From: Anaeramoeba flamelloides
Taxonomy: Eukaryota > Metamonada > Anaeramoebidae
Assembly (NCBI GenBank): GCA_027625915.1
Contig: JANTQA010000063.1
Location: 744,001 to 808,000 of the forward strand
Reading direction: 5' to 3'
Length of the DNA: 64,000 bases
A program made the translations under genes and the position numbers. Positions 3,261 through 61,295 of this stretch are shown in pieces (position 1 is the stretch's first letter; every line of letters starts with the position of its first letter). Below the pieces are notes generated by a model, which did not search any database, was not told the DNA's origin, and was given only the letters and a program-made list of their open reading frames with translations.

Positions 3261-3532
3261 CAATCATTAAATAACTTTTTTTAGCTAAAGTGCTAAATTA
3301 AACAATTCATAACAACACTCAGCACATTTAATAAAACCAATCTTAATTTTAAAATTCAAAAAATAAGAAACTCCTTAGGATCCAAAAACATTTTTTTAAC
3401 ATTATTGATTGATTTATAAATAAATAATAATTTTCAAAAAAAAAACAAAAATAAAACAAAATTCAAAAAAAAAACAAAATTCAAAAAAAAAACAATATTC
3501 AAAAAAAATATAACAAAATAAAAAAATAAAAG

Positions 3533-4563
3533 TGAATTCAAAATTGAAATATGTTGCATTAAAAATCATCAGTAAGAGCACATTTTCTGTTGTATACAAA
3601 GTTCAGGATCAAGTAACGAAAAGGATTTATGCAATAAAAAAGATAATTCATGATCCAAAACACCACAATCGGGAATTAGAAATCATGAAATTGGTTTCGC
3701 ATCGGAACATTATCAAAATGCACGATTTTTTTTATACCAAGGGCAAGGTCAAAACAGAAGATCTTGACTTGCATTTGGTCCTTGAATATGTACCCAAAAC
3801 AATTCACCAACTGAACCAATATTATATGAAGAAGGGGGAAACGATGCCACTGATCTATGTCAAGGTCTTTATGTATCAGCTCTTGCGTGCGGTAGCATAT
3901 CTCCACCGATCCAATATATGCCACCGTGACATTAAGCCCCAAAATATCACCTTTTTTGAAGAGACTGCAGAGCTCAGGCTGTGTGATTTTGGAAGCGCAA
4001 AGGTTCTCTCAAAAAACCAAAAGAACGTGTCCTATATCTGCTCAAGGTATTACCGCGCGCCTGAATTGATGTTTGGAACAATGGAGTATGATACCAGTAT
4101 TGACCTTTGGTCCTTGGGCTGTGTCTTTGCAGAACTTTTAATCGGGAAGCCATTGTTCCCAGGAACTACTGGCCTTGGGCAGCTTGTAGAAATTATTAAA
4201 ATCTTGGGAACGCCCGTTAAGGAGGAAATCTATGAATGGAACCCAAACTATTCAAACTTTACAATCCCAAACATTCAACCACAACAATTAGATGCTGTCT
4301 TCAATAAAAATACACCACCTGAAGCAATTGATCTTGTTTCAAAATTTTTAAAATATTCTCCAAAATCAAGAATCCGACCTCTCATGGCATGCACACACCC
4401 CTTTTTTGATGAACTAAGGGAAAGCTCAACCGTGTTGCCAAACAACCACAAATTGCCTGAATTGTTTGATTTCGATGAGCAGGAGCTCAATTCACTTGAG
4501 ACAGAAGACGCTAAAAAACTCATTCCCAAAAATTTGATCAAGCGGGATCGTGGAAACTTTTAG
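3533..4563 (+). CDS. GSK3: Glycogen synthase kinase-3-like Ser/Thr kinase
   Basis: CMGC-group kinase of about 343 aa, close to GSK-3/shaggy across the whole catalytic domain. Visible landmarks are the VAIK-type Lys36, the helix-C Glu48, HRDIKPQN (131-138), DFGSAK (152-157) and the activating Tyr168 in VSYICSRYYRAPE. The three residues of the primed-phosphate pocket (R96, R180 and K205 in human GSK-3beta) are kept as Arg47, Arg132 and Lys157, so phospho-primed substrates are expected. The glycine-rich loop GNGSFG is replaced by SKSTFS (14-19), with all three glycines lost. There is no in-frame ATG before the kinase core. The frame opens at AG|TGAATTC, which fits an intron ending at 3532 and a start codon split A|TG, as in the proteasome gene at 60.5 kb. 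The first exon was not found, so an N-terminal inhibitory segment cannot be excluded. It ends in TAG. Confidence 0.9.
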
Positions 4564-22868: not shown

Positions 22869-23678
22869 TTATAAATTTTTTTTCTTTACAAAATATGGCT
22901 TATTTGGTTGTCTTTTTCTTGCCAACATTGATTTGACAATCCAGTTTGGATCTAAGACTCTTATATTACCCTTCGTTTGGTTATAGAATTTTTGGATAGT
23001 TTTATCCCATTTTGAAGTAGTTATGATGGTATTGATTTTTGAGCTATCAAAGGAATCCAGATACGTTCCACCAAATGCAACAAAGCCTCTTTTTATCTCG
23101 TCGAGTCTAGGGATGGATAAAGATTTATAAAAATAGACAACATTAAAGGAGAAAATGTCAGGAAGCAGATTTAAGCTTTCCACAAGATCTTCATCGCTTT
23201 CTGGTAAGGACTCTTCGTCACTATTTTCGATCGAGATTTGGTTTTCAAAATTATTTTCATTATTTGTGTTCAAATTCAAATCGTTATTGTTTTTTTGAAT
23301 ATTATTTTGATTGGACTTGTCTTTTGTAGGTGTGTATAAATACAGCTCCTCATTAAGCTTCATGCCCGCTTCAAAAGACTCAATTGCCCATTCTGGGGTA
23401 ACGATTGTTCCTCCAAGCTGCGAGACATGCTCATACACTTGGTTGTTGTCACCACAAATCAAGTGTGTCGACGATAACGCATCCCATTCTGCATTTATTT
23501 TGGCACCCATTTGCTTAAGTTGGTTTGTAACAAGCAATTCGACAGCAGGTTCGATCCCTGTTATAACAACATCGATTCTGTTAAACAGTTTTGATTTCTC
23601 AGATCCAATCGTGTTTAATTCTTCGTATTCTTCTTCTTCAGAAAGAAACTCTTCTGTTGATGATCCATTTTCGGTCAT
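22869..23678 (-). CDS. XRCC1-like tandem BRCT protein
   Basis: A single-exon protein of 269 aa from a clear ATG. Residues about 30-117 form one BRCT domain (VVITGIEPAVE, GAKINAEWDALSSTHLICG, LGGTIVTPEWAIES), closest in memory to BRCT1 of XRCC1 (GAKYRPDWTRDSTHLICAF, LGGRIVRKEWVLD). Residues about 172-265 form a second BRCT (LLPDIFSFNVVYFYKS, VAFGGTYLDSF, INTIITTSKWD, VLDPNWIVKS), like XRCC1 BRCT2. The linker is Asn-rich, then acidic with Ser (NSDEESLPESDED), like the CK2-phosphorylated XRCC1 linker that recruits FHA-domain repair enzymes. The XRCC1 N-terminal polymerase-beta-binding domain is absent. The likely role is a scaffold in base-excision or single-strand-break repair; another two-BRCT repair protein is possible. 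Confidence 0.68.
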   Translation of the reverse strand: MTENGSSTEEFLSEEEEYEELNTIGSEKSKLFNRIDVVITGIEPAVELLVTNQLKQMGAKINAEWDALSSTHLICGDNNQVYEHVSQLGGTIVTPEWAIESFEAGMKLNEELYLYTPTKDKSNQNNIQKNNNDLNLNTNNENNFENQISIENSDEESLPESDEDLVESLNLLPDIFSFNVVYFYKSLSIPRLDEIKRGFVAFGGTYLDSFDSSKINTIITTSKWDKTIQKFYNQTKGNIRVLDPNWIVKSMLARKRQPNKPYFVKKKNL

Positions 23679-27641: not shown

Positions 27642-29154
27642 TTAATTTTCATCACTGAGAACTTCAATTTCACGGTCTTCATCAGATCCTTCTACTTCTT
27701 CTTCTTCTTCTTCTTCTGAGAAGTATAGCCAATCTTCGTATTCTTTACGAGATTTGTCAACGATTTCTTTTCTTTCTTTTTTATTTTTTTCTTCAAGTTC
27801 TTTTTGGTTTTGCAATTTAGTTTTGTAGTATGGATTCAATTTGACCATTACGGACATATCTTCATATGGATCGGCTCTTTGGATTTTTTTTCCGTATTTT
27901 CTGCTACGTGGTCTTCTATTTCTTAAGACAGTTTGGACTTGGTCTGATTTGATGATTCTTTCAACATCGGTGTTGACCATGACAGGCCTTGGGAGATAAA
28001 ATCCACTCTTGAATTTGGATGGTTTTTCCCAGGATCCATAGATGTCTTCTAATAATTTGAAGGCAGATTCTGTCCAGATAATAAATCTTCCCATTTGGCT
28101 ACCTGGGGCAAGCTTTAAAAGATTTAATGTGTAAACAGAGGCAGTCTCAACACCTGGAATGTTTCTGAATGCCTTTTTAATCCCTAAGTTGCGTGCATAG
28201 ACGACCATTGGCCCTTTTCTTAAGACGTGTCTTCTGTTTCTGTATTTACCCTGGCCTACTCTTGTCTTTTTGGTTCTGATGACTTTTTCAACATCTCTAT
28301 AGGCTCCAATGAATTTTAAAAATTTGACAGCTTGTCTGGTTTTGGTTAATGATTGGAGTTGATCAGAAACAACTAATGGAAGTTCTGGTAATTTGTTTAC
28401 TCTGTGGCCTCTTGACATTACTAATGGAGTAACTGCAGTGGCAGCAATGGCAGAGCAGACTGCATATCTTTTTTGGTTGGTGTTAATTTTTCTATGCCAT
28501 TTTCTCCAAACCTTTTGAATTTTGAAAGAAAAGAAAACAGAAAAAATGGTTAAAAGCAAAGGTTAAATTAATTCAAAATTTAAAAGCATTTAATTTAAAA
28601 AAAAGAAAAAAAAAGAAAGTAAATTTGAAAGAAGAAAGAAAAAAGAAAAAAAAAATAAAGACAAAAAATATTAAAGAGCAAGATTAAGATGAATTACTTT
28701 TTTTGGTGCATACATTCTACCACCTCTACACATGTTACCAAAAGCTGCTTGTCCAGATCTCCCAGTACCTGAACCTTTTACTCTTGGAATTCTTGCTACA
28801 GCTCTTCCAGTTCCCCAAGACTATTTTTAATGAAATTTTTAAATAATCAGAAAGTTTTCAAAAGGAAATAAAAAATTAATAAAGCAAAATTAAAAAAAAA
28901 AGAAAAAGGAAAGATCCAAAAAAGAAAAAAAAGAAAAAAGTAATATTTACAGTAGCTGAAGTTTGTTCACCAGCAGTGGTTGAAACAGCATGGGCTTGTC
29001 TATTATTTTTAGCCATGTTTGTGTGAACAAATCTTACAACATCTGGTCTAATTGGTGCTGAAAAGACAGATGGAAGAGGTACTTGTTTAATGGTTTTAAC
29101 TTTTCCTTTGATTGGGAAAACAGAAACAATTGGACGAAGTTGTTGGGTTGTCAT
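27642..29154 (-). CDS. RPL4: 60S ribosomal protein uL4 (RPL4), three exons
   Basis: Large-subunit protein lining the exit tunnel. Minus-strand exons 29154-28951, 28820-28698 and 28511-27642, all in phase 0, give 398 aa. Donors are GTAAATA and GTAATTC, acceptors AATAG and AAAAG; introns are 130 and 186 nt. The joined protein reads through typical uL4 blocks: [99 protein letters not shown] and [14 protein letters not shown]. The tunnel loop lies mostly in exon 2. The C-terminal tail is Lys-rich and then strongly acidic ([17 protein letters not shown]), a departure from the basic tail of animals. It is divergent from the calmodulin gene, which starts 915 bp away. Confidence 0.97.
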
Positions 29155-41900: not shown

Positions 41901-44900
41901 AATGAGTTTCTATAAAATAACCACATATGAGAAAAAGTGAAACAGGAAAAAAAGTACAACACTGTTTTTAATTGGAAACCTAAATAGAACCTGAAAACTG
42001 AAAAGTAAGATCAATTAATACAAGAAAAAACCAATGATTAAAGACAAAATGGAGGATTAAACACAAAAACAGTTTTTTTTAGAATAATATCTTTTGGTAA
42101 CAGTTTTTCTTTGATTAATCTATTATTAAAAATTTGTTGAAAAATTTGACTATTGTTGAGGATCTCCAAAATTCATATGGCAATTTTGATCAAAAAGTAG
42201 ATCCAAATTAACTTCAAAGAACAATACACATACTATTTGTTTCAAAAAAAATAGAACAAAATTTTCATTCAGCTTTGCAAAAAAAGGTTTTAAAATCATG
42301 TAAAATTTCAATTTTTTAATTCCTAAATTTAGCTTAAATTATTAATTTACCTTTTTAGAATTGGAGACTTTTGATGATTTGTTATAATTCTTGGTTATGT
42401 GATTATTTTTGAAAGCTGAATGAAAATTTTGTTCTATTTTTTTTGAAACAAATAGTATGTGTATTGTTCTTTGAAGTTAATTTGGATCTACTTTTTGATC
42501 AAAATTGCCATATGAATTTTGGAGATCCTCAACAATAGTCAAATTTTTCAACAAATTTTTAATAATAGATTACTGTTGAGAGAAAAACCTTGGACAGGGA
42601 AAAATAGTTGGACAGCAATTTTAATTGGGAACATCACTGAAAATGATTTTTAATTTCAATTGTTTGTGAAATAACTAAAGAAAATAACAATAATCCACTA
42701 ATTTGAATAACAATTAATGTAATTCTACTTTTTCAAAACCTTATCTCTTATAATCTAAAGCAAGTTTAAAACATTACCATTTTCAGAATTAATAGTAACC
42801 ATTGTGAAAAAAATTTGGGTAATTAAAAAAAATTGGGTCAGTCAAAAATTTGTTTTCGTTTTTTAAATAATAAATTTTAGCAAAATGATTTTTGATCAAA
42901 GTAAAATTTTATGAACAAATCTTACATTTAATAAAAACCAAAGTCATTATCAATAATAATTTTCAAATGCAATATTAAATTGTTGCATTTTAACCTTTTG
43001 GAATTACTGTGGAACTCTAAAAAACAAAAATTTATTTTTAATTGTATACTTTACTAAAAATGTTGATTTTTTTTTTATTAAATTACATTACAAGATCAAG
43101 TTAATTATTGTTTGGGAAGACCAAAAATTAATAACAGTTTTAAATTAAGGTTTATCTATGAGGATTTTTAGAATTTAAATGGTTTCTGAAATCTTGAAAT
43201 TTCGGTATTTTGAAGTTTTGATTGTAAACATAAGTGGAAAACAACCTCTTTCGAAAAAACATCTTTTTTGGAAGAATTTATGATTCAATTTGGTTTAAAA
43301 GGATATTTAAGATTAACCGTGATAAATTTGCGTTTATTAACAATGATAAATATCTTATTGAATTAATAGATTTTGATATTTCCTATTAAATAGTTCTCTT
43401 ATTTTTAGTAAAGTTGGCAATTAAAAATAAATTTTTGTATTTTTGGAGTTCCACAGTAATTCCAAAAGGTTAAAATGCAACAATTTAATATTGTATTTGA
43501 AAATTATTATTGATAATGACTTTGGTTTTTATTAAATGTAAGATTTGTTCATAAAATTTTACTTTGATCAAAAATCATTTTGCTAAAATTTATTATTTAA
43601 AAAACGAAAACAAATTTTTGACTGAACCAATTTTTTTTAATTACCCAAATTTTTTTCACAATGGTAAACTTTACAACTTGGATTTTTGTTGGCATAGTAC
43701 GATCTACTTTAGTTATCAACAATTCAAATGAGTATTCTACACACACCACAGATTAATGAACTTGTAACACATTTAAACCCGGATTGTTATAAAATTCACC
43801 TAGTTATCAATAGGATTTGATTTTCAATTTGACTAATGTTCTCAATTAACAATGGTGTCCAACCATTTTTCTGTGTCAAACATTTTTCTCTCAACAGTTA
43901 ATCATAGAAAAACTCTTACCAAAAGATATTATTCTACTGCTATTTGAATTATAAAAGGGAAAAAATTTTCACTTCCTTTTCCATAGTTTTCTTTTTCAAA
44001 TAGATCCCAAATTACAACTCATTTCTGAAAAAACTCTTCTTATTAAAGAAAAATATGGAAAATGAAGTGAAAATTTGTCCCCTTTAGAATTCAAATACCA
44101 GTAAAAAAACTGTTATTGTGTTTAATCCTTCATTTTGTATTTCACCATTGGTTTCTTCTTTTATTAATTGGTTTTACTTTGAGTTTTCAGTTTTCTGTTT
44201 AGGTTTCCAATTAAAAACTGTGTTGTACTTTTTTTCCCTAATGGTCAAATACAAACAAGAAGAATTTGTAAAATTAAAAATCAGAACTTGTTGGTGACGA
44301 ATGGTATATGTTTTTGGGAGCAAACCCAAAAAGGTTTAGTCTTCAAAATTTATCAATAGTTTCTTTTTTTTTAATACTTTTCCAATCCACACTATCTTTT
44401 TTCTTTTTTATTATTCTTATTCTTATTCTTATTCTTATTTTTATTCTTTTTCTTTTTCTTTTATTAAATTGTATTAATCTTGAAAGAAAGATTTCATATT
44501 TTTTTCCAAAAAAAGACAAAGGTCAATCATTAAAGAAATATAAAGTCGAACCGACCCGATTTTATGAATTTTGGAAATTTGTGATTAAAATATAACAACA
44601 TAAAATTTTCAAACATTAAAAAAAAAATTAGTAATTGTTGCCCAAATTATTTGCAAAAGCAGTAAAATTCATAAGACTTGTAAGTAATTCCAAAAAGTGG
44701 TGTCGTGTTTGTAGGTTACAAAATTGAAGGTTTTGATTTGTTGAGCTATTTTTAAGATTTGGTTCTAAAAAATATTGAAAACCTGAAAAAAATTTTGATC
44801 TTAATTAATTTGATTTTTGTTTGAAATCAGTAAAACCTTTTCAAAAAAAAGGAATGAATTTTAAAGACATACGATTGGTAAAAAATTTATAATACTTGCA

Positions 44901-45388
44901 AAAATGGGGAAACAAAAAAAGGAATGGGGAAATAAGAAAAAGGAAAAAACGAAAAAAAAAAAGAAAAGAAAACACATACTAAGAGTATTCCACAATTTAA
45001 TTGTATTATCAGATGATCCAGAAAAGAGTTGTCCTGTGGGATCAATATGAAAGGTTGTAACCTTCCCAGTATGACCTTTAAATGTTGTTAATAGTGTCTC
45101 GTTTTTTGTGTCATAGGAACGGAGAAAGCCACCGCCATCTGAGGCATAAAGAACACCTTTTGAAACTTTCAGTCCACACAGCGGAGCGTTGTGGTTTGTG
45201 TAAGTCTTAATGAGATGAGCGCTGTTGATGTCATAGACCCTGATCTCGTGATTTTGAAAACCACAATACAGATAGGTTTCGTCCATTGACAAACAGTTCA
45301 CGCCGGCTCCTCCAAACCCCCCGTATGTTACAAGTGGTTCGTAACATGGAATACTTCCACGTGTATCTTTTAATAGCTCATAATTCAT
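35966..45388 (-). CDS. WD40-[FeFe]-hydrogenase-flavodoxin fusion protein (two exons)
   Basis: Exon 1 (45388-44980) and exon 2 (39612-35966) join across a 5367-nt intron (donor GTATGT, acceptor ATTTAG). The junction completes a WD repeat: IKLWNTL|N|GNVVQNYEAHSD. The protein has 1351 aa. Residues about 30-340 hold eight WD40 repeats. Next come a [2Fe-2S] ferredoxin domain (Cys405, 416, 419, 436) and two CxxCxxCxxxC clusters (520-530, 566-576); no His-ligated NuoG-type cluster motif is seen between them. The H domain keeps all four cluster cysteines: Cys705 (L1, NSACPSW), Cys760 (L2, LTGCVSIKNE), Cys1089 and Cys1093 (L3, VCPFSCIGGGG). The L1 proton-shuttle Cys is Ala704 and the L2 lysine is Ile. 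Residues about 874-1044 are a low-complexity insertion. Residues 1203-1349 form a flavodoxin domain with FMN loop GSQTGIAREIS. No targeting peptide is evident. H2 sensing or altered H2/NAD(P)H chemistry is inference. Confidence 0.87.
37091..37128 (-). repeat. Hexanucleotide repeat in the hydrogenase insertion
   Basis: Six or so near-perfect units of TTTCCN on the plus strand encode an (Asn-Gly)n run, within residues 965-976 of the joined hydrogenase. It lies in the low-complexity insertion and may be length-variable. Confidence 0.85.
40202..40308. repeat. Short hairpin in the hydrogenase intron
   Basis: The arm TTACCAATATAAAACGAAAA is inverted at 40278-40308 (TTTTTCGTTTTATGTTGG), with a loop of about 45 nt. 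No known function. Confidence 0.6.
41527..41785 (+). pseudogene. Coding-like relic inside the hydrogenase intron
   Basis: On the plus strand a stretch after ATTGTAG reads GVVRRIFNHPSDDENGQFEN then PLLFNR. In a different frame the following 150 bp read IGKRVCQIGSKNHIPRIPQ and FHSRIRSCKN. Composition is coding-like and G+C-richer than the rest of the intron, but no single frame spans it. The second part faintly resembles an FHA domain (I-G, then a late H-S-R); this is weak. Probably a decayed gene fragment. Confidence 0.25.
41918..44246. mobile_element. Nest of palindromic MITE family A elements in the hydrogenase intron
   Basis: The outer element has termini TAACCACATATGAGAAAAAG and an inverted, partly deleted right end near 44246. 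Inside lie three further structures. One is a fold-back with arms of about 165 bp (42110-42276 and 42410-42577). The second, about 42572-43902, has inverted ends TTACTGTTGAGAGAAAAA; within it sits a palindrome with arms of about 265 bp (42790-43058 and 43407-43668, ends TAACCATTGTGAAAAAAATT). The third is a fold-back of about 55-bp arms at 43940-44104. All ends resemble family A. No protein is encoded. Confidence 0.75.
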
Positions 45389-49450: not shown

Positions 49451-49918
49451 TTGAACTTTTAATTGGAATAAATAAACTATTTTTCAAAATGATTTCTCAA
49501 CTGTCTAATGTTGACAAAAGAAGTTGTGTGTTTCAGGATTTAATTATATTTTAGTGTAAATAAGAACTCGATTTCCTTTGGATTAACAGAATTAAAAAGA
49601 TGTCAGAATTCTTAAATTGAGAAAAACAGATACTCTTAAAAAATATTTCTGTAAAGGTAAAAAGACTTAAGTTGACAATTAACTCAAAACACATTAAATC
49701 AAAAATTAACTTAGTAATTTAAAATGTTTAAAAGCAAATTTAATTTGATTTTTTTTTCGACTTTTGAAAAGAACAAAATTTTTTAAATGAAACTTTTTGT
49801 TTCTGAATCATTCTTTAGACTAACGTCTAAGGATCCCTATTCTCAGTTTTGACAATAAAACTGGATCATATGAGAATTTTAAGAAGTAAAAATTATTTTT
49901 TTTCTACTTTACATCTAA
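49451..49918. promoter_or_regulatory. Upstream region of the macroglobulin gene
   Basis: AT-rich. A stop codon (TAA) directly precedes the start ATG in frame, and no splice acceptor lies next to it. No promoter motif recognised. Confidence 0.4.
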
Positions 49919-52900
49919 ATGACTTTGGTTCTTGACAAACATTTCAAACCACCAAAACATTTCTTGGCCGAACAAAGATATTCTTTACATATTACAACAG
50001 ACAAACAGTTATACAAACCAGGAGAAAAGCTCTTTCTTCGAGGGGTTTACGTAAAATCATTCGATGAAAAACCACTCCCAAACGATTCTTTGCAAACGAT
50101 AAAACAAATAGGGTATCCTTTTCTTCGTATTTGTAAATCGAACTCTGAACAAATCCACGAAGAAAGGATGGCCTTTGCTCAGAATTCAACTTTAAGCCAC
50201 TATTGGGAAATACCAAAAACAACAAAAGGAGGAGAATATTATGTCGAGATCTTTCATAAGTTTGGAACAGGTGTTCCACCTGCAAGAAGAGAAATTGAGA
50301 TCCGAGAATTCAGGGTGCCATTATTTAAAAAAAAGATCAATTTTCTAAACAAAGGGTATTCCTTTGGCGATCAAGTTTCTGCGGTTTTACAAGTTGAGAG
50401 AGGAACCGGAGAAAAACTTGCAAAAAATTCCAGTGTAAGCGTCAAAGTAGGTGTCGACGACAAAGTAATCTTTGGGCCTGATATTTTTTCTTTTACCAAG
50501 GAGGGGGAGTGCTTAATTCAATTCACGTTACCTACCAATTATAAAAAACCATCTGCAACAATGGTTTGTGTGATCAAAGAAAATGAGATTGAGGAGGTCT
50601 TTGTCAAAAAGATCCCCATTGTTGACAAGGAAATACAAATCTCGTTTTATCCTGAAGGAGGAGAAATAATTGAAAAATTTGACAATCGGATTTATTTTGA
50701 GTGCACAGATCTCATAACTGGCGAACACATTGAAATTAAAGGGGAACTTGGAATTCTTGAAAACAGAAAATTCAAGTCATTCAAAAAACCAATTTACGTT
50801 TCGACGAATGAATTAGGAAGAGGCAAGTTTGTCATTAAAAACGCAACTCGAAGGGATTATTATCTTTTAAAAATAACAACCCCAAGCAAGATCAATAAGA
50901 GGTATAAGCTCCCCCAGTGCAAACCAATTAACTCCCAACAATCAAGCAAATGCTGTCTGACAACTTTAAAAAACACCTTTAGCTTTGGGGAAGATATTGA
51001 GTTAAAATTGGGTTATTCACCCCAAAAAGAATATAAAATATGTTTGTATAAAAGAGAGCTATTAATTTCTCAAGTTATTACAAACAGAAATAAGAAAACT
51101 AAGAAACAAATCTTCACCGAACAAATCAATTTATCTACAAATGATTATTGTGGGGTTTTAAGGGCCACTGTTTATCAAATAATAAGCAAAAAAGGAACAA
51201 CAGAAGAAACAGAGATGCCTATCTGCGAAAGGCTGGTTTTTGTCTCTCCAAAAGAAAAAATACATTTGGACATTCATTGTAATAAAAAAAACTATGAACC
51301 TTCTGACAAAGTTGAAATGATCATCAGCTCAAAAAATTCAAAAGGAAAACCAATAAAGTCAAATGTGTGTTTAACTGTTACCGATGATTCTGTTTATACA
51401 ATGTTTGAAAAGGAAAAAAGACACCCAAGATTAACTGAAATGATCTATTTCGAAAATGAAGTTGAAAAATTCTATTCACCATCAAATTATTTGATCAATA
51501 ATAAGAATGACAATGAGAAGATCAGCAACGACATCGATTTGCTATTAGGAACCCAGGGATGGAGGAGATTCATTTATTCGGATCACAATAAATCTCAGAA
51601 CATCCAAGATGATATTCAAAAAAAAAAATTATTTGTAATGGATCATAATGGGAAATGGGATATAAACGTAGACATTTATCCTTTACAAATAGGAGAAACT
51701 CAGGATAAAATAATCATAAAAACTTGCCCATATGAAACTTTATATGATATCAAAGAACAAATTGAAAAGGAACATGGAATTGCAATGAAAAATCAAGTTT
51801 TAATGGGCTTTTCATTAAATAACAATCTTTTAAATTCTGACAATGAGAATAGAACAACCACAGAATTAGGAATATGCCAATGGTCAAATTTAAAATTAAC
51901 ATATATCTCAAATATCAAAACAGAAAATGATAATAGGATTGAAATAACCTATATTGATGATGAAAATACCCGGAAACAATTATTCCATTGTTCGAACCAT
52001 AATACTTTGGAAGAAATTAGGAAAAAAATTCGAGAAATATTTAATAATATTGATCCTCAATTCAATTTCAAATTTGGGAATGAATTAATTTTTAAGAATG
52101 GAAAGGAAACATGGGAGTCTATTAAAAAAAAAATTTATGGAGAATATGCAGATCTTGAAGCAAAAGAAGATTATATATTTAATTTTGAAATTGAATATCG
52201 AAAATTGAATCTCAATATTCAAGGAGAAAATAAAAGGTTTCAAATTGAAATTGAGATTAATAAAACAATACCTCAATTACTAAAGATGATTGCATCACAC
52301 TATGGAACACAATGTTACAGATTAAAGATAACACTGAAAGGTAAAAATAAACTTTCTCATCATTCATTTCAAAAAATAAGTTCATCTCAAATAATGAACA
52401 ACGATAAAATAATCGTTACGAAATTGAATATTCCAAAAGGTGCAATATTACTTTTTACCAAAATGCTGACTGGGAAAACTATTGAAATATTTTGCCTTCC
52501 ACATATAACAATCCAAGAGTTTAAACTCAAAATCCAAGACAAAGAAGGAATCCCACCAGACCAACAAAGGCTAATATTTGCTGGAAAGCAATTAGAAGAT
52601 GGAAGAAAACTTTCAGATTATAATATCCAAATGGAATCAACTCTTCATTTAGTTTTAAGATTAAGAGGCGGCGGTGGGGATGAGCTTCGCAATGTTGGGT
52701 CTTATTTCGACAACAGCGAAGAAGATCAAATTAATTTGCCCGCCAATTTTGATGAACCAATTAAAGAAATTGAATTTGAAAATATAAAAAATGATAACCA
52801 AGGCAAAAAAGAAAAGGAAATACATTTTGATCCAAATGAGTACGAAAATGAAAAGGAAAATAATAAAAACAGTATCCAAAACAAGGAGTTGTCACTTGTA

Positions 52901-55261
52901 AGAAAATATAAAGCCCGGGGACCAAAATACTTTCGAGAATATGCGCATAAAAGAAACACTGATTTCCAATATGGGGAAAGAAAAGATTTCACCCAAACAA
53001 TTTATTTCAGTTCCTATATCGAAACTGAATTTGATGAAAAATCACAAGAATATCTTGCCAAAATTAATTTTACTTTATCTGATTCAATTACACAATTTAG
53101 AATTCTTGCAGACCTTTTTACCCATGATGGCATTTTTGGCACAAATGACCAAGTATTAATCACGAGTATCAAACCATTTTATATTGAAACACAATTGCCC
53201 TTAGAATTAGGAAACCTTGATCAACCAAAGATTTATTTATCTGCGCGCAATTCAACACAGATGGATTTGGATTTGAATTATTTGATCCAAATAAAAAAAA
53301 AGGGAAGTGAAAAAATCTTAAGGGAAACAAAGTTCGATTGGGGAATCAAAAAAAAAAAGCAATCACAAAAAAGTTGGAAATGGAAAGTAAAAGCGACCAA
53401 AATTCGAAATGGGATTATTCAGGTTATAATGACAGCTCAAGATAAAAAAAATTCATTGATAAGAGATAAAATCATTTCTGAAATAAATATCAAAACAACT
53501 GGATACGCCCAAGAAATAAATATTGGAGGGCTATTGAATGGGAAAACTAATTCTGTTCATAAATTATTTATCCCAAAGAACGATTCATTCATTGAAAACG
53601 CAAATAACAAGAATAATTGGGAACTTCTTTTGAAATTATATCCCACACCAATGAGTGCCCTCTTTGAAGCATTTCGTGGATTGATCAAAAGGCCATATGG
53701 CTGCTTTGAACAAGCCTCAAGGATAATTTACCCTTTGATTATGATCCGAAAATTTTTTCAACACTATCTTAACGACAACAACACGAAAACAAATGCCTTA
53801 AATATTATGATTTCCCAATATCTTAAAGAAGGCTATCGAAGACTAATTGGCTTTGAATGCCAAAGGGGAGGATTTAGTTGGTTTGGGGGCGAACCAGGTC
53901 ATATAACATTGACTGCAATGGGCCTCAACGAATTTAATGATTTATCTCAAATTTACCCAGTTGATCAAGACATGATCCAAAGAACAACCAATTGGCTTCT
54001 TGCGAAAAAAAATGAAAATTTAACTGGATTTGTTCAAGATCGATTAATGTTAGAATACTATGGCAGCTCTCCACAATATATTTCAGATGCCTATATTTTA
54101 TGGAGTCTATCACAAACAAATGATAATTTAAAAAAAAATAATGATCTTATAAAAATATTAAATCATTTATACAACACAGCATTAAATGAATTCAAACATG
54201 ACCCATATTTTATAGCTTTGATTTCTTTAACCTTATTTAATTTCAATGAAATGGATAAATCCTTATTTTTAGCAAAAAAATTAAAAAAATTTTTGGATAA
54301 AAAAACTGGAATGATCAAGGGATCATTTACTTCGATAACCAATTCGAGAAATCTGAATTTGAATCTTGAAACTACTTCTTTAGTTGCTTTGTCTTGGTTC
54401 AATTTCAAAAATAACTTTATGAAGGATATTAATAAATGCTTAAATTGGATCATTTCCCAATGTAAAAATGGCGTTTATGGATCAACACAATCAACCATTT
54501 TATCTTTAAAAGTTTTATTAAAAGCCTATCAATCTAACGACAATCAAAAGAAAACGAATAAGAATAAAAAAGAGATAAGCAAATCATCATTAAAATATAA
54601 CATCGAATTCATTATTAATAAAAAGACTAAAGAAATGATTGAAATAGATAACCAATCGAATGAACCATTTGTATTTAAAAAAAACTTGAAAAAGATTTTG
54701 AAATTTGGTGAAAATAATCTCTTTAATTTAAAGGCTAAGCATACACCCTTCAGTCCTTATTCTTTACAAATGAGCTATTACACAACTGAACCACAATCAT
54801 TTGAAGAAAATGTTATTGATTTCAAAATTCATTTTAAAAAGAAGACAAAAACAAAAAAACTAAAAGAAAACCAAGAGGAGGAAGGCGAAGATAAAGATAA
54901 CGATATCCACCAATTCAAAGTAAATACTCTGAACCCCTTGAAAATTCATTTACAGAATTTAAAAAGTGAACAAATTGGAATGGTAATTGCAATAATCGCA
55001 ATTCCAGGAGGAATGAAACCAAATATGGAACAAATAAAAGAATTGAAGGCTCAAGAAACATTTGATTATTATGAATTATTCACACCAAGAGAAATCGCCT
55101 TCTATTGGAATAAAATGGATAAAAATCAATCAATCAATTTTTCACTTGACTTAATTGCTAAATTCACTGGATTTTATGTTAGCCCAGCTAGCAGAGCTTA
55201 TGAATATTATAATGACCAAATTAAAAATTATCCTAAAGTATTAAAAGTTAATATTATTTAA
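49919..55261 (+). CDS. Alpha-2-macroglobulin-like thioester protein with embedded ubiquitin array
   Basis: An intronless 1780-aa protein. The start is firm: TAA directly precedes the ATG, so there is no signal peptide and the protein is predicted cytosolic. The N-terminal part has macroglobulin domains of bacterial style: [10 protein letters not shown] (27-36), FYPEGGE (243-249) and GTQGWRRF (544-551). Three degenerate ubiquitin folds follow (about 597-663, 672-760, 761-837), then a near-perfect ubiquitin (843-918) ending LRLRGG. Lys63 is Met905; the Lys48 and Ile44-patch equivalents remain. After GGDE comes an acidic linker (to about 1004), and the macroglobulin resumes at FREYAHKR...DFTQTIYF (1005-1030). 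The thioester site PYGCFEQAS is intact (Cys1262, Gln1265). GGFSWFGGE (1317 on) and the C-terminal [10 protein letters not shown] match bacterial A2M. The array sits where the bait region should be. Such proteins trap proteases covalently; deubiquitinase-triggered trapping is my inference. Confidence 0.92.
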
Positions 55262-60461: not shown

Positions 60462-61295
60462 AGTAACAGATCTGATAAAAACTTAGTTTTCTTTTTTTTC
60501 TTCTTTTTTTTAAAAATTTTTGACAAAACAAAAAAAATAATTTTTTTTTATTTTTGATTGATTGCTTGTTTGCAACATAAAACAAAATAATTAATTTGTT
60601 TTTTCCATTTGGACAAACCCATAACAAATCCTTTTAACCATACCAAACAAAAATTCAAAAACAAATTGACGATCTTAGTGAGTATTTTCCAATATAATGG
60701 ATCGACAATTGTAGCTATGGCAGGAAAAAATTGTGTTGCTATTGCGGGCGACACGAGATTTGGTGTTAGGAACCAAACGGTCGCACTTGATTCAAATCGA
60801 ATTTTCAAAATTAATAACCGTACTCTTTTTGGAATGACTGGCTTAAATACAGACATTTTAACTTTAAGAGAGTCATTCAAATTCCAAATGAACCTTTATA
60901 ATTTAGAAGAAGAAAGAGAAATTTCGCCAAAAACATTTGCCCATAACGTCGCACAAACCTTATATTCCAAAAGGTTTGGCCCATATTTTATTACACCAAT
61001 TATTGCGGGCCTTGAAGGAGAGGACTACACACCCTTTCTGTGCGCAACAGACTTAATTGGGGCAATGGAGTTCCCAAAGAGCTTTGTTGTTGCAGGAACA
61101 GGGGAGGAGTCCTTAATGGGTGTTTGCGAAACATTTTATAAAGAAAATATGGAGCCAGAAGAGCTTTTCGAAGTAGTTTCCCAATGCTTACTCGCAGCAG
61201 TAGACAGAGACGCATTGTCTGGTTGGGGATCGGTTGTTCATGTTTTAACCAAGGATGGTATAACAACAAAAAGATTAAGAACAAGAAAAGACTAA
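60462..61295 (+). CDS. PSMB3: 20S proteasome subunit beta-3 (PSMB3), start codon split by an intron
   Basis: A non-catalytic beta-ring subunit of the 20S core. The open frame carries YNGSTIVAMAGKNCVAIAGD, TRFG, GMTGLNTDILTL, RFGPYFITPIIAGLEGED, GAMEFPKSFVVAGTGEESLM and RDALSGWGSVVHVLTKDG, all typical of beta-3; the catalytic Thr1 and propeptide of active beta subunits are absent, as expected. There is no usable ATG at the start of this frame. An intron from 60463 (donor AAA|GTAACA) to 60678 (acceptor TTAG) would join A to TG and give MSIFQYNGS, matching MSIMSYNGG of human PSMB3. The total is then 205 aa, exactly the human length. A second donor (AATAA|GTAGG, intron start 60429) would give the same protein. 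The TTG at 60609 is not needed. Confidence 0.92.

Follow-up and report, generated by a model that had tools for sequence, protein, structure and literature searches.

The question raised by this locus is what a ubiquitin does inside a thioester protein. The stretch analysed, here called the window, is 64,000 nucleotides of Anaeramoeba flamelloides DNA (contig JANTQA010000063.1, forward-strand positions 744,001 to 808,000), and it contains at 49919..55261 an uninterrupted open reading frame (ORF) of 1780 amino acids, designated P0001, with an in-frame TAA at 49916-49918 just upstream of its ATG. P0001 is a member of the alpha-2-macroglobulin (A2M) and thioester protein family by its domain order, its thioester Cys-x-Glu-Gln motif (from which the bond is predicted) and its macroglobulin (MG) ring fold. 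Residues 843-918 form a ubiquitin fold placed between MG6-beta and MG6-alpha, which is the slot of the bait region in A2M and of the anaphylatoxin domain in C3. It is considered probable, if only slightly so, that a cut by a deubiquitinase after Gly918, at this site in what is probably a cytosolic thioester protein, is functional. The elements of the slot and its borders are given below, with residues of P0001 in brackets.

51536..51571, + strand: pre-bait anchor (540-551) at the end of MG6-beta, from invariant residues
51674..51913, + strand: degenerate ubiquitin-like unit 1 (about 586-665), from a family hidden Markov model (HMM; 3.4e-14 over 594-629) and Pfam ubiquitin (1.1e-4, below cut-off)
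51923..52186, + strand: putative ubiquitin-like unit 2 (about 669-756), weak, family HMM E 0.06, without a Pfam ubiquitin match
52187..52438, + strand: putative ubiquitin-like unit 3 (about 757-840), weak, Pfam Ubiquitin_5 1.6e-3 (below cut-off), family HMM E 0.07
52445..52672, + strand: near-ubiquitin unit 4 (843-918), 58/76 identical to human ubiquitin, with Pfam and fold matches
52655..52672, + strand: LRLRGG tail (913-918) with the predicted deubiquitinase-cleavable bond Gly918-Gly919, from sequence and low model confidence from residue 916
52673..52978, + strand: low-confidence, probably disordered linker (919-1020) from ubiquitin to MG6-alpha, containing REYAH (1006-1010), from AlphaFold and alignment
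52979..52990, + strand: post-bait plug-like motif R-x-D-F (1021-1024), from invariant residues

The bait position that the original prediction had given to the array was supported by sequence anchors, by a colinear paralogue without the array, and by the structures of A2M, A2ML1 and C5, which align on either side of it. In the pre-bait anchor, D540, L541-543, Q546-R549 and F551 are invariant among 11 protist sequences (of which P0001 and its nearest match, P0002, are near-copies), and L541-543, Q546-R549 and F551 are invariant among 49 aligned sequences. Linker residue R1006 and motif residues R1021, D1023 and F1024 are invariant in both alignments, and the pattern R.[DEN][FW], a loose one sought over a 760-residue span, was found downstream of the anchor in 234 of 237 proteins. 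By analogy, the R-x-D-F motif may be likened to Arg730 and Phe733 of A2ML1 as described in PMC9156758, and the alignment suggests that the linker is the counterpart of the BR-C or Nt-alpha' thread.

Unit 4 has the beta-grasp fold, the Leu8-Ile44-Val70 patch and the C-terminal LRxRGG of ubiquitin, and the claim that it is almost ubiquitin with an intact LRLRGG end therefore stands (Pfam E 1.5e-25 over 847-916); of the three degenerate ubiquitins claimed to precede it, one is clear (unit 1) and the other two are only weak. Putative unit 2 was modelled as strand-strand-helix with a predicted local distance difference test score (pLDDT) of about 49-68. The AlphaFold runs were fed 50 and 49 alignment rows, and most of residues 550-837 is of low confidence in them, such that the packing of the array cannot be inferred. 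A fold search with the first model listed 50 rows, all of them ubiquitin or ubiquitin-like chains, and was uninformative on other regions. Burial of Gly918, named in the original prediction as contrary evidence, was not what the model gave; Gly918 is instead part of a stretch (916-1022) with pLDDT below 50 that is probably disordered. Protease-trapping A2M has a disordered bait cut by many proteases, and in P0001 this stretch beside the ubiquitin is at most a candidate for one.

The remaining features of P0001 belong to the macroglobulin core.

49919..55261, + strand: ubiquitin-bearing thioester macroglobulin, whole ORF, 1780 aa, from Pfam domains and the near-identical P0002
49919..51571, + strand: N-terminal MG domains through MG6-beta (1-551), from Pfam MG2, AlphaFold and structural matches to C5, A2ML1 and A2M
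53042..53266, + strand: Pfam A2M block, MG6-alpha/MG7 (1042-1116)
53663..54517, + strand: thioester domain (TED; 1249-1533), from Pfam
53699..53713, + strand: thioester motif GCFEQ (1261-1265), from sequence alignment
54971..55219, + strand: A2M receptor-binding/MG8 domain (1685-1767), from Pfam

The Pfam order is MG2, ubiquitin, A2M, TED and A2M_recep; the MG2, A2M, TED and receptor-binding domains each lie above the Pfam cut-off, A2M_BRD lies below it, and neither an anaphylatoxin nor a C345C domain was among the Pfam matches of P0001. The N-terminal blocks from residue 21 have pLDDT mostly of 75-94. The thioester motif is intact, and is invariant in 11/11 protist sequences.

Among the matches listed, the protein nearest to P0001 is P0002, named 'macroglobulin / complement', from A. 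flamelloides, which differs at 26 of 1780 residues. At least four paralogues, spread over two Anaeramoeba species, carry ubiquitin arrays, namely P0001/P0002 and P0123 in A. flamelloides and P0122 and P0125 in A. ignava, with four, six and six Pfam ubiquitin stretches in P0123, P0122 and P0125, respectively. Four A. flamelloides macroglobulins among the matches listed (P0124, P0126, P0129 and P0131) are without ubiquitin. The protein searches covered the best 120 of 247 matches and the N-terminal search the best 120 of 315, and more Anaeramoeba copies may exist; in an alignment-based protein search (46 matches), P0002 was the sole protein named Anaeramoeba and no additional ubiquitin-bearing macroglobulin was found. 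An HMM derived from the array, run against 282 proteins at E<0.001, matched five macroglobulin sequences and four proteins with VWA and ubiquitin domains and without Pfam macroglobulin domains. These four (P0278-P0281; 888-1007 aa, from environmental data) are another ubiquitin fusion. Two other accounts of P0001 were rejected: an ordinary polyubiquitin, as the units are diverged and most lack Gly-Gly, and a chimeric assembly, as the design recurs in a sequence deposited separately and in three more paralogues. The source record of P0125 labels it 'polyubiquitin-like'.

A 63-row tree of the core, built without the insert, places the ubiquitin-bearing proteins in one group (SH-aLRT, the Shimodaira-Hasegawa-like approximate likelihood ratio test, 94) and the Anaeramoeba proteins without ubiquitin in their own (100), and unites all eight Anaeramoeba proteins (99). 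The trees were quick searches, midpoint-rooted, and in the one of 63 rows a long-branch warning accompanies the pairing of P0001 with P0123; when P0001 or P0123 was dropped, the ubiquitin group stayed intact (97 and 87, with 14 bacterial rows, not 53). Relatives without the array had been named beforehand as evidence against the original prediction, and the outcome did not refute it, the array being present in relatives of both species and absent from the sister paralogue group. According to PMC11550330, orthologues of A. flamelloides and A. ignava have a mean identity of 37.3%, and those of A. flamelloides strains are 94.8% identical; with the array in both species at that mean identity, the design is probably older than their split. 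The closest cores outside protists, among the matches listed, are bacterial. Planctomycetota account for 42 of the 80 bacterial loci listed (80 of 560 confirmed), and the others include Pseudomonadota, Melainabacteria, Myxococcota and Lentisphaerota. The core is of bacterial type and is taken as laterally acquired. A scan of IMG/VR for viral relatives matched 50 stretches, of which 0 encoded a relative.

Residues read by deubiquitinases are kept in these arrays, with L8, R42, I44, H68, V70, R72, L73, G75 and G76 retained in 4/4 near-ubiquitin units. Positions of the deubiquitinase interface, a crude set, match human ubiquitin in a mean of 3.76 of four units vs 2.83 elsewhere (permutation p 0.0002), and within positions 29-76 in 3.73 vs 3.30 (p 0.023). 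Positions 1-28 match in a mean of 2.4 of four units vs 3.4 for positions 29-76. Such a tail could also serve a giant modifier, in which the cut N-terminal half, ending in a free LRLRGG, would be activated by E1 and conjugated to targets; R72, L73, G75 and G76 in all four units agree with this, but these ubiquitins are heavily changed in their N-terminal part, and the idea is regarded as very improbable. Counting weak units, Gly-Gly ends 1/4 units in P0001, 1/8 in P0125 and 2/5 in P0123; P0122 has it at the end of its eighth and last unit, and a second Gly-Gly (1102-1103) stands immediately before that unit without an LRLR-like tail. In P0123, about 785-1020, two adjoining Gly-Gly-ended ubiquitin-like units are followed by a third without Gly-Gly, and a cut at both Gly-Gly sites would free one unit, just 29/76 identical to ubiquitin.

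The array also changes quickly. P0122 and P0125 are identical at 0.90-0.93 of core residues, but their ubiquitins agree at 48/76 positions, their other units at 415/574 and their linkers at 29/57; between P0001 and P0002, 9/289 array residues differ vs 17/1491 elsewhere (Fisher p 0.026, a single post hoc test with regions picked by the analyst). Rapid change with a preserved cutting surface may fit a bait-like element. It would also be expected of a recognition surface, and so bears on the sensor of foreign deubiquitinases put forward in the original prediction. In its full form, Gly918 would be hidden from host enzymes in the native fold, and a cut by an enzyme that a bacterium releases or injects would fire the thioester at the intruder. 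The slot and the intact thioester motif suit this sensor, but the tail is predicted by the model to be exposed and bait regions diverge fast anyway; it is thought distinctly improbable, and its share is counted within that of a trigger. Drift could also account for the divergence, if a ubiquitin repeat had been copied into a tolerant slot with no special role and its intact part were refreshed by polyubiquitin gene conversion. In keeping with this, other domains occupy the slot in 2/5 bacterial relatives scanned (CarboxypepD_reg in P0009 and P0014; Plug in P0014), slot lengths vary from 118 to 466 in 190 proteins (measured on 201 of 281 proteins, the remaining 80 being without one anchor under the patterns used), and P0125 is 64/76 identical to human ubiquitin while its near-twin P0122 is 50/76. 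A single gain on the tree, retention of the array in 4/4 group paralogues across two species, and retention of cleavage-surface residues beyond the remaining positions argue otherwise, and the absence of a role is held to be unlikely.

A crude hydropathy scan stood in for a signal-peptide predictor (for P0123, the scan of the first 45 residues alone), and by it 0/11 protist relatives have a signal-peptide-like hydrophobic N-terminus, the maximum over any 12 residues within the first 45 being 0.19-1.59. Among the other relatives, nearly all bacterial, 126 of the 140 testable reach a hydropathy of at least 1.8 upstream of the MG2 motif. An N-myristoylation pattern is present in 5/11 protist sequences, including all four ubiquitin-less Anaeramoeba proteins, and in 0/270 other proteins. 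P0001 is probably cytosolic, because of the lack of a signal peptide by hydropathy in the 11 relatives and the myristoylation motif in five, and would then share a compartment with host deubiquitinases, a point absent from the original prediction. A secreted protein with a missed signal peptide is unsupported, given the hydropathy and the in-frame stop at the ATG; a spliced upstream exon may be conceivable. Two protist macroglobulins from EukProt transcriptomes, P0031 and P0056, are also without a signal-peptide-like start, and P0056 begins with the myristoylation-like MGTTAS and has a long charged, possibly coiled-coil C-terminal tail.

A cytosolic thioester protein is not absurd, since human C3 that lacks its signal peptide resides in the cytosol and acts there as an opsonin on invading bacteria (PMC9095555). 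That precedent, with the start of P0001, would also suit an array that is never cut, whereby the TED would bind a bacterium or damaged compartment covalently and the attached array would itself be read as ubiquitin by autophagy adaptors, with no ligase required. In its favour are the length of the arrays, which reach eight units, and the Leu8-Ile44-Val70 patch, present in 4/4 near-ubiquitin units and in the Gly-Gly-less unit 5 of P0123. Gly75-Gly76 would be needless in such a flag and would make it removable, yet is retained in 4/4 near-ubiquitin units, and the full patch is missing in 4/5 other units tabulated (other P0122, P0125 and P0123 units being left out); a flag of this kind is considered rather unlikely.

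Cleavage after Gly918 is preferred. The internal ubiquitin of ordinary ubiquitin-fusion proteins is cleaved by cellular hydrolases. Ubiquitin inserted in cytopathogenic pestivirus polyproteins is likewise a cleavage site for cellular ubiquitin hydrolases (PMC8310069), and a functional cut is proposed because of this, because the residues read by deubiquitinases are kept, and because Gly918 lies in a probably disordered stretch. The near-ubiquitin unit would present its surface and Gly75-Gly76 end to a deubiquitinase, which would cut after Gly918 as C3 convertase does after the anaphylatoxin domain, and a probably disordered thread would run from the ubiquitin to the plug-like R-x-x-F motif. 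Two outcomes of the cut are envisaged: the thread would come loose and leave the thioester open to covalent linkage, or the protein would be processed to a mature two-chain form. The placement in precisely this slot, together with the plug-like motif, suggests the trigger, which is put forward tentatively; routine two-chain maturation, the alternative already named in the original prediction, is about as likely, and is offered with a shade less conviction. The full form of the trigger, an intracellular complement-like trap with ubiquitin as the anaphylatoxin plug, a deubiquitinase (perhaps from an intruding bacterium) as the convertase, and a cut that fires the thioester and so turns deubiquitination into covalent tagging within the cell, is rather unlikely.

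Several points weigh against a functional cut or against its coupling to the thioester. Host deubiquitinases in the cytosol would probably act on an exposed Gly76 without delay, a poor fit to a trigger, and the probable cytosolic location, which makes cleavage plausible, suggests that a quiet trap for injected deubiquitinases alone would be harder to maintain. The thread of C3 is much shorter than the linker of P0001, which is about 100 residues. The near-ubiquitin unit of P0122 carries L71W and R74K, a Gly-Gly-less ubiquitin-like unit stands in P0123 between its two predicted cut sites and MG6-alpha, so that the layout is not strictly conserved, and Gly-Gly by itself is not unique to the near-ubiquitin end, as in P0122. 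Polyubiquitin gene conversion may keep these residues without any function in the macroglobulin, and the interface set and the hydropathy scan, being crude, count on the same side.

The G+C content of the window is 19-33% in 2-kb stretches, and the neighbouring ORFs are the following.

3532-4563, + strand: protein kinase
22869-23678, - strand: BRCT domain
27642-28559, - strand: ribosomal protein L4
35966-39574, - strand: one ORF of 1202 aa with WD40 repeats and 2Fe-2S, [FeFe]-hydrogenase large-subunit and flavodoxin domains
44861-45388, - strand: WD40
60609-61295, + strand: proteasome subunit (Pfam Proteasome E 9e-46), downstream of the macroglobulin

The L4, BRCT, kinase and WD40 ORFs are an ordinary eukaryotic neighbourhood. 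To find WD40, hydrogenase and flavodoxin domains in one protein is unusual; the fusion may be genuine, or two genes may have been run together.

The words 'macroglobulin' and 'ubiquitin' are absent from the main text of the Anaeramoeba genome paper (PMC11550330), and no paper came up in a full-text literature search that combined Anaeramoeba and macroglobulin. Among the matches listed, neither such a protein (in literature on macroglobulins with ubiquitin, protists, thioesters or gene transfer) nor a deubiquitinase-gated thioester protein appeared in titles and abstract starts, and the combination of ubiquitin processing and thioester opsonisation in one molecule was not found. The sequences are public and already named in databases; the arrangement itself appears to be without a description in the literature searched. 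If the cut works as proposed, a single-celled eukaryote would have a cytosolic complement analogue switched by deubiquitinases, giving a direct experimental handle on the triggering of intracellular complement, and even mere maturation would mean that a thioester protein is processed in a new way. Anaeramoeba harbours bacterial symbionts (PMC11550330), and a protein of bacterial type would there have been fitted out with ubiquitin.

P0001 resembles complement C3, C4 and C5 in having an MG ring with a domain that fills the MG6 slot. C3 and C4 carry a thioester, and the anaphylatoxin domain of this family is cut off at its C-terminus, which releases the thread. In complement the anaphylatoxin domain occupies the MG6 slot instead of a bait (PMC9156758), whereas P0001 has ubiquitin folds there, no signal-peptide-like start, a bacterial-type core, and as its predicted cutter a deubiquitinase instead of a serine protease. 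With A2M, A2ML1 and bacterial alpha-2-macroglobulins it shares domain order, thioester motif and R-x-x-F post-bait motif, but its bait slot is filled by a ubiquitin array in which a single bond is the likely specific site, and most bacterial relatives, unlike P0001, have a hydrophobic N-terminus. The sister paralogues P0124, P0126, P0129 and P0131 have the same core and slot, and differ in lacking ubiquitin, in the length of the insert, 170-207 residues, and in carrying an N-myristoylation motif. The pestivirus cut, as far as described, frees a downstream product, whereas P0001 would be cut in the trigger slot of a thioester protein. Cytosolic human C3, made from an alternative start according to PMC9095555, is likewise a thioester protein without a signal peptide, but it comes from the gene of secreted C3 and has no ubiquitin, whereas Anaeramoeba has a dedicated gene family.

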